DNA of 27,645 nt from positions 1 to 27,645 of the IMG/VR virus record IMGVR_UViG_3300025449_000714; one strand, 5' to 3'. Under the pieces are notes generated by a model. The model did no database searches, was not told where the DNA came from, and saw only the letters and a program-made list of their open reading frames with translations. Shown here in pieces: positions 22,951 to 26,522 of the stretch. The first letter of the stretch is position 1. The number at the start of each line of letters is the position of its first letter. The position numbers and the translations under genes were made by a program. Source of the DNA: a virus.

Positions 22951-24486
22951 ATGGAAAACATTAAAAATATTATAGTCGTCGGGGGCGGAACAGCCGGGCT
23001 AGTTTCAGCATTAATGCTCAAAAAAACTTTTCCCGATATTAATTTGTCTATAATTTATTCTAAAAATATAGGTATTATTGGCGTCGGCGAGGGTACTACA
23101 CCAAACTGGGATGAATTTATAGAATATTGTGATATTGATACAACAGAATTTTTTTTGAGAACAGATGCTACATTTAAATTTGGTATTGAATTTTTAAATT
23201 GGGACGGTAATAATAAATCATACTTACATAGCGCGGTCTGGATGAATAGATGGTTTGGCTATAATACTTTTTATGATGTACATAATAATTACCCGTATAT
23301 GTTTGCTCATATGATTGCTGATAATAAAAGTACTTACGAAACTACACACCCTTTTATTTCGACAGATTTAATACCTAAAGATAAATTACTTACTGGACCA
23401 ATACATTTTAATACTTACAAAACTAATGATTATTTAAAAGAACTGTGCGACCGGCGATCAATAAAGTTAATTGAAACTGATATAGTTTCTGTCGCTACAA
23501 CTGATAATGGTATTTCTAGTATAACTGATGTCAATAATGTAACCTATAATGCTGATTTTTTTATTGATTGTTCAGGTTTCGCTAGATTATTATCAAAAAA
23601 TTTAGATTCTAAATGGATAGATTATAAAAAATATTTACCCATGAATCATGCTATAGCTTTCCCGACAGAGCAAAAAGATTACATTTCAAATATTACAAAA
23701 AGCACGGCGCTTTCATCGGGATGGTGCTGGCAAATACCAACTTACGGCAGAAATGGCAATGGTTATGTTTTTGATGATAGTTATATTACCGTAGATGAGG
23801 CTAAAAAAGAAATAGAGAATCTGTATGGCCATGAAATTGAAATTGGAAAAGATATCAAATTTAGCGCTGGCAAAATAGATAAATTTTGGAATAAAAATTG
23901 TGTTAGTATTGGGTTAGCCGGAAGTTTTGTTGAACCATTAGAAGCATCTAGTATCGGATTTACTATTAAACAAATGTTTTATCTAATAGGAAATATCGTG
24001 TACTGGCGCAACAATTCAAAATTTATAGAAAATAATTTTAATACAATTTTCGACAAATCTTTTGATAATATTGTAGATTATATACAATTGCATTATTTTA
24101 CAAAAAGAAAAGACACACCATTTTGGAAAGAATTAGAATTCATAACTACCGATTTCAACAAAGATACTATAGAAATATTTAAAACTAATTTACCCAGGTC
24201 CACTTTATTCGACAGCAATAATTTTTTATTTTTAGCACATGATTGGATACAGGTTATGCATGGTTTAGATATGTTTGATAAAGAAAAAATTGGTAATGAG
24301 CTACTTTCTTTTAATTTCAATTATAATAAGTTGAATGAAATACGATTAAATCATTTAAATAATGACAAAAACTTACCAAAAATAACGCATAAACAATATT
24401 TAGACGAATTACATATAACTAAGGGCGAAAATATTAAAATTTTATATCAAAAATCTTTAGATGAATGGGACAAAATTAATCAGTAA
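22951..24486 (+). CDS. Flavin-dependent tryptophan halogenase-like protein
   Basis: The 511-residue protein has the FAD motif VVGGGTAGLVSAL (GxGxxG, residues 11-16). FKFGIEFLNW holds Lys76, which aligns with the catalytic Lys of PrnA. GWCWQIP (Trp258 to Pro263) is the halogenase WxWxIP motif. FVEPLEASSIGFT matches the region with the catalytic Glu. All key residues are present, so FADH2-dependent halogenation of an aromatic substrate is likely; free tryptophan may not be the substrate. Viral homologues are known, for example VirX1 of a cyanophage. No flavin reductase is seen nearby, so a host reductase would be used. AGGAT precedes the ATG. Confidence 0.9.
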   Translation: MENIKNIIVVGGGTAGLVSALMLKKTFPDINLSIIYSKNIGIIGVGEGTTPNWDEFIEYCDIDTTEFFLRTDATFKFGIEFLNWDGNNKSYLHSAVWMNRWFGYNTFYDVHNNYPYMFAHMIADNKSTYETTHPFISTDLIPKDKLLTGPIHFNTYKTNDYLKELCDRRSIKLIETDIVSVATTDNGISSITDVNNVTYNADFFIDCSGFARLLSKNLDSKWIDYKKYLPMNHAIAFPTEQKDYISNITKSTALSSGWCWQIPTYGRNGNGYVFDDSYITVDEAKKEIENLYGHEIEIGKDIKFSAGKIDKFWNKNCVSIGLAGSFVEPLEASSIGFTIKQMFYLIGNIVYWRNNSKFIENNFNTIFDKSFDNIVDYIQLHYFTKRKDTPFWKELEFITTDFNKDTIEIFKTNLPRSTLFDSNNFLFLAHDWIQVMHGLDMFDKEKIGNELLSFNFNYNKLNEIRLNHLNNDKNLPKITHKQYLDELHITKGENIKILYQKSLDEWDKINQ

Positions 24487-24771: not shown

Positions 24772-24792
24772 AAAAGTCTTGACAAGACTTTT
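24772..24792 (+). promoter_or_regulatory. Perfect 21-bp palindrome, operator and/or terminator of the cold-shock gene
   Basis: AAAAGTCTTG (24772-24781) and CAAGACTTTT (24783-24792) are perfect inverted repeats around one base. As RNA the outer part would form a stem ending in T residues, so it could terminate the cold-shock transcript. As DNA it covers the -35 box of the next promoter and could be an operator. Confidence 0.6.
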
Positions 24793-24807
24793 ATAAAAAT
24801 GTATAAT
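24779..24807 (+). promoter_or_regulatory. sigma70-type promoter of the 305-residue protein
   Basis: TTGACA at 24779-24784 and TATAAT at 24802-24807 have a 17-bp spacer. The start point is expected near 24814, with a leader containing CAAGGAAAA before the ATG at 24843. The consensus boxes and good ribosome-binding site suggest high expression. Confidence 0.85.
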
Positions 24808-25763: not shown

Positions 25764-25780
25764 AAAAGATAGTTGTAATC

Positions 25781-25833
25781 CCTTCAAAGCGAAGGAGTCC
25801 TGGACGGGGGTGCGAATCCCCCCAGGTCCACCA
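25781..25833 (+). ncRNA. ssrA: tmRNA acceptor half (permuted, two-piece), ends in CCA
   Basis: From the 3' end, ACCA (25830-25833) follows the acceptor strand CAGGTCC (25823-25829). Before that lies a T-arm of GGGGG, loop TGCGAAT and CCCCC (25806-25822). AGTCC (25796-25800) pairs with GGGCT at 26256-26260 of the other half. A 5-bp hairpin (CCTTC/GAAGG, 25781-25795) precedes it. There is no anticodon arm, so it is not an ordinary tRNA. The acceptor strand pairs fully with GGGCCTG at 26236, including G3-U70, and the discriminator is A73, both alanine identity features. The true 5' end is not defined and may lie some bases upstream. Confidence 0.85.
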
Positions 25834-25856
25834 TAAGGAGATTGAATAAATACTAG

Positions 25857-26234
25857 ATGCGAATAAAAGACATTGTAACCGAATCATTAAACTTTGAAGA
25901 AGGTGACTGTCCTATATTTGCCATTGCCCTGCATCGCTTATCCAAATTGCCATTAATGGCATTGGTTGAATACGATGAACAAATGGGCAAGACTGTATTA
26001 ATTCACGCCTATGTAAAATTTACTGATGGCAGAGAATATCCTTGTGTTGACATTAATGGGGAAGGTACTACTGAATGGTATCTACAACAGTTCCCAAATA
26101 ATGGCAACGCAGAGGAAATTCAAATTAGTGAGAAAGATTTGTTAGAGTTGGGGTATGGTAAAAGTCAATGCCCATCATTACATCAAGTCCTTCCGCAAGC
26201 CAAAGAAGTTTTAGCAGACATAGATTCTTTATGA
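25857..26234 (+). CDS. Phage protein encoded inside the tmRNA spacer
   Basis: The 125-residue protein has MRIKDIVTESLNFEEGDC, ALHRLSKLPLMALVEYDEQM, TVLIHAYVKFTDGREYPCVD and ISEKDLLELGYGKSQCPS. It reads as a real folded phage protein of mixed alpha/beta type. I recall similar proteins of unknown role in T4-like phages. AAGGAG is 16 bases before the ATG, longer than usual. The gene lies wholly between the two tmRNA halves: it starts 23 bases after the CCA end, and its TGA stops one base before the tmRNA 5' G. Cutting the precursor at the mature tmRNA ends would therefore release this mRNA. Confidence 0.75.
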   Translation: MRIKDIVTESLNFEEGDCPIFAIALHRLSKLPLMALVEYDEQMGKTVLIHAYVKFTDGREYPCVDINGEGTTEWYLQQFPNNGNAEEIQISEKDLLELGYGKSQCPSLHQVLPQAKEVLADIDSL

Positions 26235-26235
26235 T

Positions 26236-26453
26236 GGGCCTGCATAGTTTCGACAGGGCTAGATAGTAGAGACGGCAACTGGGTAGGCGATGACCCTAAA
26301 TCAAGCAAAACTCGTAAATGCAAACGCAAATACAAAATCTGGCACTGTAACTGTAAACGGCAAAGGAGTTAAATTCTCTGCTCGCACAGCAAAGGTAGCG
26401 TTAGTTTAATCTAACACCAGCGGGGCAAGTATGCCTTGTAAACAAAAATACTA
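26236..26453 (+). ncRNA. ssrA: tmRNA coding half (permuted, two-piece) with tag frame
   Basis: It begins GGGCCTG (acceptor 5' strand) and then TTTCGACAGG, the hallmark D-loop-like segment of tmRNA. GGGCT (26256-26260) pairs with AGTCC of the acceptor half. GGGT and ACCC around 26281-26295 fit the first pseudoknot. The resume codon region CGTAAATGCA begins a 29-codon tag. The TAA stop lies in the loop of GTTAG/CTAAC (26404-26414), as in other tmRNAs. A GGCA/TGCC hairpin follows. The 3' end is inferred from the terminator. Its job is to free stalled ribosomes and tag the unfinished protein. Confidence 0.85.
26320..26409 (+). CDS. tmRNA proteolysis tag frame (29 codons)
   Basis: The frame starts at GCA (26320-26322) and ends at TAA (26407-26409). 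It reads ANANTKSG at the start and KFSARTAKVALV at the end. A second GCA two codons on could be the true resume codon, giving 27 residues. The tag is longer than the 10-15 residues of many bacteria. It ends Ala-Leu-Val rather than the common Leu-Ala-Ala or Val-Ala-Ala. Confidence 0.75.
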   Translation, partial: ANANTKSGTVTVNGKGVKFSARTAKVALV

Positions 26454-26476
26454 GACACCCTTCGGGGTGTCTTTTT
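26454..26476 (+). terminator. Intrinsic terminator after the tmRNA
   Basis: GACACCC (26454-26460) pairs with GGGTGTC (26465-26471) around TTCG, followed by five T residues. This is a strong terminator that ends the tmRNA transcript. Confidence 0.95.
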
Positions 26477-26493: not shown

Positions 26494-26522
26494 TTGACAA
26501 CAAACATAAATAACTATATAAT
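26494..26522 (+). promoter_or_regulatory. sigma70-type promoter, first of two before a structured RNA
   Basis: TTGACA at 26494-26499 and TATAAT at 26517-26522 have a 17-bp spacer. The spacer contains CATAAATA (26505-26512). Transcription would begin near 26529. Confidence 0.8.

Follow-up and report, generated by a model that had tools for sequence, protein, structure and literature searches.

Exchangeable protein genes in the intervening sequences of permuted phage tmRNA genes

The stretch of DNA analysed here (the window), a linear fragment of viral origin in IMG/VR with 27,645 bases, carries a permuted two-piece tmRNA gene with a complete protein gene in its intervening sequence (IVS). Comparison with related loci shows that the IVS serves as a slot for exchangeable protein genes which, judged by their sequences, have been exchanged between phages without the tmRNA and its flanks. 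The comparative case for this architecture and for the exchange is unusually strong, and we regard the finding as real. In addition, we infer a plausible regulatory mechanism: one transcript would probably serve both as mRNA and as pre-tmRNA, with translation and tmRNA folding in competition and the IVS acting as an exchangeable gene slot.

The permuted tmRNA gene of the window

The preliminary description of this DNA proposed a permuted two-piece tmRNA in which the CCA-ending half lies upstream of the half with the 5' end and the tag. A scan against all Rfam families (cmscan) returned RF04321 (tmRNA_permuted) as the sole strong match at this place, extending over 25771–26356 of the plus strand with 109.6 bits (E = 7e-21; gathering score 47). 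The alignment is full-length (model 1–213) and handles the ORF as an insertion; as it takes in both halves and not one of them only, the halves, their order and their coordinates are confirmed (Table 1). The complete protein gene in the spacer is found as proposed, with an IVS of 402 nt and a 125-codon ORF whose stop lies one base ahead of the tmRNA 5' G. Likewise present are the 7-bp acceptor stem (26236–26242 with 25823–25829), including G3-U and A73-CCA, and the 5-bp helix of the T stem (26256–26260 with 25796–25800).

Table 1. Features of the tmRNA locus in the window
Feature	Position	Strand	Remarks
Sigma-70-type promoter-like site	24779–24807	+	TTGACA-17-TATAAT, 12/12 consensus match; head of unit, at end of cold-shock-type gene region
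Upstream ORF, 305 aa	24843–25760	+	Weak DUF4214 similarity; probably co-transcribed
tmRNA acceptor piece (3' tRNA-like half)	25771–25833	+	P2 strand, T arm GGGGG-TGCGAAT-CCCCC, acceptor CAGGTCC, ACCA 25830–25833; 5' limit approximate; RF04321
IVS, 402 nt	25834–26235	+	Predicted absent from mature tmRNA; RF04321 match
Extension stem, 5' strand UAAGGAG	25834–25840	+	Holds Shine-Dalgarno AAGGAG 25835–25840
AATAAATACTAGA, like T4-type late promoter	25845–25857	+	Similar block ahead of IVS ORFs of L053, L068, L345
IVS gene, 125 codons (MRIKDIVTES...DSL, stop)	25857–26234	+	UGA stop 26232–26234; homologous to module of larger phage proteins
Extension stem, 3' strand UUCUUUA	26225–26231	+	Inside last codons of IVS gene
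UGAU	26232–26235	+	Faces ACCA (A-U, C.A mismatch, C-G, A-U); supplies UGA stop
tmRNA coding piece	26236–26452	+	5' G at 26236, acceptor GGGCCTG, UUCGAC, P2 strand, tag frame; 3' limit approximate
Tag reading frame, 29 codons + stop	26320–26409	+	GCA AAC ... TAA, ANANTKSGTVTVNGKGVKFSARTAKVALV, stop; unusually long
Intrinsic-terminator-like hairpin, then TTTTT	26453–26472	+	

Both helices are conserved over 88 distinct relatives: the acceptor pairs are formed in 87–88 of them and the pairs of the 5-bp helix, depending on position, in 84–88. Two positions of the 5-bp helix show compensatory changes. Three acceptor types occur among the 154 permuted tmRNAs listed (135 GGGCCTG/CAGGTCC, 12 GGGGGTG/CACCTCC and 4 GGGGATG/CATCTCC), which amounts to compensatory change in the acceptor. 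Chance as the origin of the arrangement is excluded by the fold z-score of −4.15 together with the counts of full-length ORFs with a Shine-Dalgarno (SD) sequence relative to shuffles (see below).

A separate one-piece tmRNA, which would speak against this assignment, was seen in the window neither by ARAGORN nor by cmscan, and no CCA half was found downstream of the 5' half in the window, unlike the order of one-piece tmRNAs. RF00023 reached 18.2 bits in the window, under its cut-off of 47. The window gave no Rfam match to a group I intron, and the T-loop is intact. ARAGORN does not detect the window tmRNA itself.

The tag of the window ends in ALV and not in LAA, and the score with RF01850 (beta_tmRNA) is 21.9 bits in the window, compared to a cut-off of 84 that many relatives do pass. 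Both properties would fit a tmRNA that is defunct or a decoy in this phage, with the protein gene sitting in a relic. This explanation is very improbable, as all tRNA-like pairings are intact, the tag frame is open and the RF04321 model is matched at 109.6 bits. Moreover, long tags of about 27–31 aa recur in L086, L098, L112 and L123, which are related to that of the window, and in L056, their C-termini varying between ALV, LAV, VLA and ALAA. Most relatives have 10-aa tags of the ANDSQFALAA type, and the carriers of IVS genes, too, mostly have such ordinary 10-aa tags, mostly ending in LAA. Possibly, not all of the long tags are degradation tags.

The promoter-like site, the DUF4214-like ORF, the acceptor piece, the IVS gene, the coding piece and the terminator-like hairpin suggest one transcription unit. 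Co-transcription is suggested because a 12/12 sigma-70 match stands at the head of these elements and a terminator-like hairpin at their end, both being predictions. A second perfect promoter-like site is located at 26494. Elsewhere in the surroundings, a tryptophan-halogenase-family gene (22951–24486, Pfam E 4e-93) is preceded by an outer-membrane-like protein and followed by a cold-shock-like gene, and a AATACTAG repeat at 25849 and 26447 is weakly enriched (4 vs 1.3 expected). In 50,697 phage records, the coding half and the ORF of the window gave no match, only acceptor halves being matched, and no isolated phage of the window lineage was found. A neighbouring exonuclease is at most 53% identical to those of jumbo Pseudomonas phages.

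Protein genes in the intervening sequences and their exchange

Relatives, i.e. loci or contigs labelled with L-numbers, were collected with a 5'-half pattern in 2.9 million viral contigs and by scans with constraints on IVS length or SD, which resulted in at least 154 permuted tmRNAs; many pattern hits from the constrained scans were chance matches and were set aside. Rfam scans of 28 relatives gave scores above the RF04321 gathering score in every case; L047 passes (79.2 bits) with permissive filters only and is missed by the fast filters. Several relatives also exceed the beta_tmRNA cut-off, and L304 (95.6 bits) and L134 that of alpha_tmRNA. The IVSs of the relatives range from 25 to 491 nt. 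ARAGORN detects 109/115 relatives with an IVS below 220 nt, 3/9 at 220–300 nt and 2/15 at ≥300 nt, so that loci of the last class are probably annotated as a plain protein gene without a tmRNA. Permuted tmRNAs are present without tmRNA annotation in isolated phages as well, namely L008 (2446–2837, Pseudomonas phage SM1), L284 (Xanthomonas phage X1), L285 (Xanthomonas phage Rb1) and L286 (Stenotrophomonas phage vB_Sm_QDWS359), the latter with a hypothetical protein annotated over the tmRNA on the opposite strand. A pattern for IVSs of 360–420 nt gave 96 chance matches and no permuted gene in 84,980 species genomes, a null result that is not evidence of absence since the pattern excludes the common alpha and beta 5' motifs. 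Among 150 genomes of the Pseudacidovorax-MAG order, four exceed the RF04321 cut-off, three of which were resolved to a permuted gene with an IVS of 24–42 nt.

Three peculiarities were noted among the relatives. The acceptor of L040 has a U-U mismatch (GGGCCTG/CTGGTCC) and a different T arm, as if its acceptor half came from another tmRNA. L119 and L150 share a T-arm-like hairpin, GTTGGTTCGATTCCAAC, in a non-coding IVS of 80 nt, perhaps a tRNA remnant. L093, a phage contig, has a COG2908 RNA over its Rfam cut-off at 159–203.

The search in related phages recovered the arrangement of the window many times: among the matches listed, 82 of 154 permuted tmRNAs have an SD and an ORF in the IVS (35 families, 22–151 aa). 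One scan selected for TAAGGA, so this ratio is not a frequency, and the shortest ORFs (22–26 aa) are individually less certain. In a sample chosen without reference to the SD, an SD and an ORF running to the IVS end were present in 12/14 IVSs of ≥300 nt (shuffles 0%) and in 12/16 IVSs of 130–300 nt (shuffles 0.5%), giving 24/30 coding IVSs at ≥130 nt vs 0–0.5% in shuffles. Full-length ORFs and an SD within the first 12 nt are associated (23 both, 6 ORF only, 8 SD only, 45 neither; p = 1e-8). Of the 24 families with an ORF extending to the end of the IVS, 18 use the UGA of the terminal UGAU as stop codon (p = 4e-5 vs one frame in three).

Recognisable IVS products comprise a thioredoxin in L396 (PF00085, E 4e-21), a GNAT acetyltransferase in L068 (PF13508, E 2e-6) and a CxxCxxCC protein in L022 (PF03692, E 1e-5). 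The remaining products are without a recognisable family, many of them being small and hydrophobic, and no homing-endonuclease family was found among the IVS ORFs tested against Pfam. The gene pair L013/L022 shows a dN/dS of 0.06, and four comparisons within a family of 122-aa IVS genes gave about 0.13–0.22; the values of about 0.40 (L074/L136) and 0.67 (L057/L107) stem from close pairs and are uninformative. As judged by codon substitutions, purifying selection acts on the IVS genes in most of the pairs that allow such a test.

The window ORF gave no sequence match in Pfam, PHROG or PDB, and its AlphaFold model (pLDDT 72) gave no significant fold match, the best being an uncharacterised phage protein (E 0.006). 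Homologues with 69–75% identity are present in six contigs, where no Rfam tmRNA lies nearby, and in both of the two contigs examined in full the homologue is a module within a larger protein. The differences between the window ORF and its homologues are concentrated in third codon positions (25–32/10–18/44–54 by position), and 32–35 codons differ synonymously only. A phage protein of 1170 aa (L001:2029–5541) combines GNAT, PARP-like, window-ORF-like and other modules with GVAEG-like linkers between them, which might be prohead-protease sites. Several IVS genes correspond to single modules of an L001-type protein, starting MRIxEI..TES. As both the window ORF and the GNAT protein of L068 resemble modules of this protein, some cassettes draw on the repertoire of a modular phage protein.

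Exchange of the IVS is apparent from pairs of loci. L114 and L048 are 96% identical upstream, 100% in the acceptor half, 99% in the coding half and 98% downstream, with an IVS identity of 52%, i.e. chance level; one IVS encodes 23 aa, the other is without such an ORF, and the switch falls within a few bases of the mature ends. For L114 and L091, it is the IVS that is shared (99%), with 51% identity upstream, 75% in the coding half and 52% downstream. A GNAT-like IVS gene of 122 aa is 92–100% identical in six loci, the upstream sequences being mostly unrelated and the downstream sequences unrelated. A quick tree of the mature tmRNA, of low resolution, shows ORF-bearing loci in scattered positions, and many near relatives have a short non-coding IVS. 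The 52-aa gene of L087 type is found in other phages outside the IVS, upstream of the tmRNA; genes thus move between the slot and its neighbourhood. The near-identical tRNA-like halves flanking the IVS would act as homology arms for the exchange. A GIY-YIG-like gene (E 0.00065, below Pfam's cut-off) adjoins the tmRNA in six loci (L047, L055, L092, L094, L013 and L058) as the first gene downstream, on the opposite strand, and might be a candidate for mobilising the locus.

Pairing of the IVS ends and a possible translational switch

The ends of the IVS prolong the acceptor stem by A73-U(-1), a C.A mismatch, C75-G(-3) and A76-U(-4), followed by approximately 11 bp; UGAU is present in 120/154 relatives listed. 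Over 88 distinct loci, pairing was found in 76–88 at each of stem positions 2–11 and in 69 at position 1, and compensatory changes occur at every position of the extension stem. Cognate IVS ends pair at 10.3 of 11 positions, compared to 7.0 for non-cognate ends and 7.6 for the best of 2000 shuffles. Isolated Pseudomonas, Xanthomonas and Stenotrophomonas phages with a short IVS have the same stem and UGAU, and three bacterial permuted genes a shorter version of the stem. Since non-coding IVSs and other permuted tmRNAs have it as well, gene regulation is not what the stem arose for.

Where the IVS is coding, the SD is provided by the 5' strand of this extension stem and should therefore become hidden on folding. 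For 18 of 19 genes, the predicted unpaired probability of the SD falls from 0.38–0.77 in the nascent RNA to 0.00–0.22 in the folded precursor; in the L057 type, SD pairing is unchanged between nascent and full RNA. The SD is predicted to be still paired in most excised IVS RNAs, and excision alone would thus not switch translation on. The window is among the weaker cases, with 7 contiguous pairs, 16 nt between SD and ATG and a change in SD accessibility from 0.53 to 0.22. As most relatives have a stronger stem and a better SD spacing, it is mainly on them that the argument for a switch is based.

In the proposed sequence of events, the primary transcript would span the acceptor and tag-coding pieces with the protein gene between them, probably starting at the promoter at 24779 and ending with the terminator at 26453. 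The protein would be made while the downstream strand of the stem is untranscribed or unwound by ribosomes, and folding of the precursor would then hide the ribosome-binding site. RNase P and 3' processing, which are established to excise the IVS of permuted tmRNAs, would yield the mature tmRNA and an mRNA ending one base past the stop. Ribosomes finishing the IVS gene would hold the acceptor stem open, such that translation and tmRNA maturation compete. Among the readings considered, the idea of the preliminary description that a single transcript is a competing mRNA and pre-tmRNA appears best supported by the wider evidence. A broader proposal is advanced tentatively and with some doubt: across a large phage group the excised IVS could be a working mRNA, mutually exclusive with tmRNA maturation, with the tRNA-like halves as recombination arms and the IVS protein maybe a preferred tmRNA substrate in a feedback loop. 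This last element is speculation: processing that would end the mRNA one base after the stop may make the IVS protein a preferred substrate of the same tmRNA.

The IVS genes could instead be passengers, deposited by recombination between the tRNA-like halves in a site that tolerates them, with the SD paired since the stem is needed for processing and with no regulatory coupling. The stem and UGAU of non-coding IVSs and of the isolated phages, the many near relatives with short non-coding IVSs and the frequent cassette exchange all agree with such passengers, but the tight association of SD and ORF, the preference of stop codons for the frame ending at −1, the purifying selection on IVS genes and the predicted sequestration of the SD in nearly all coding IVSs make this explanation unlikely. 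It should be noted that none of these observations proves regulation.

A separate question is raised by the block ATAAATA(C/T)TA, which abuts the ATG in the window, L053, L068, L345 and L069, the genes starting MRIxEI, MQINEI or MRFKEI. Its position before the ATG accounts for the SD-ATG distance in the window. The T4-type late promoter box is TATAAATA, from which the window copy, AATAAATA, differs by one mismatch; the block is common to four IVS genes, and in L069 the similar box lies at a gene start outside any tmRNA. In the corresponding alternative, a T4-late-like promoter within the tmRNA gene (AATAAATACTAG-ATG) would drive late expression of the IVS gene, and the tmRNA would be produced from the upstream promoter at a different time, so that both uses are separated in time and do not compete on one RNA. 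The recurrence of the box and the poor SD spacing in the window speak for this scenario; against it, the window shows no enrichment of near-matches to the box, and about 31 of the 35 IVS-gene families are without a box, most of these having a well-spaced SD. We consider it quite improbable and retain competition between translation and tmRNA folding on one transcript as the preferred reading.

Relation to known tmRNA genes

If this reading is true, what is discarded from a stable RNA can provide an exchangeable slot for genes, a single transcript can serve as both messenger and ribosome-rescue RNA, and phages swap genes across a scaffold that is conserved because it is RNA. The analysis also exposes a blind spot of annotation, as permuted tmRNA loci with a long IVS are mostly missed by ARAGORN. 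Full-text searches of 5.4 million open papers turned up no permuted tmRNA with a protein gene in its IVS, and the small number of long-IVS genes found by ARAGORN may explain the lack of an earlier report.

Permuted tmRNA as such is already known, aquatic phages included (PMC11915505, PMC9004378). The permuted tmRNAs of Alphaproteobacteria, Betaproteobacteria and Cyanobacteria (RF04321, RF01849, RF01850, RF01851; PMC11915505) have the same order of halves, tRNA-like pairing, G3-U, CCA, tag frame and IVS; in contrast to these, the IVS described here carries a complete protein gene that is exchanged as a cassette. The two-piece tmRNAs of OM43 phage Melnitz and other aquatic phages are likewise phage-borne permuted ssrA genes, reported together with a glutamine riboswitch, and in the accessible part of that report no IVS protein gene is described (PMC9004378), whereas one is present here. 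Protein genes nested in a tmRNA gene are also known from group I introns, some of which contain homing endonuclease genes, but in that case the gene resides in a self-splicing intron of the T-loop (PMC11915505), and in the present loci it lies in the IVS of a permuted gene that has no intron. Finally, a permuted tmRNA of one nominally archaeal MAG has a tRNA-Ala gene in its IVS (PMC11915505) and thus likewise an IVS with another gene; that single case concerns an RNA gene, whereas the IVSs described here carry protein genes at many loci.
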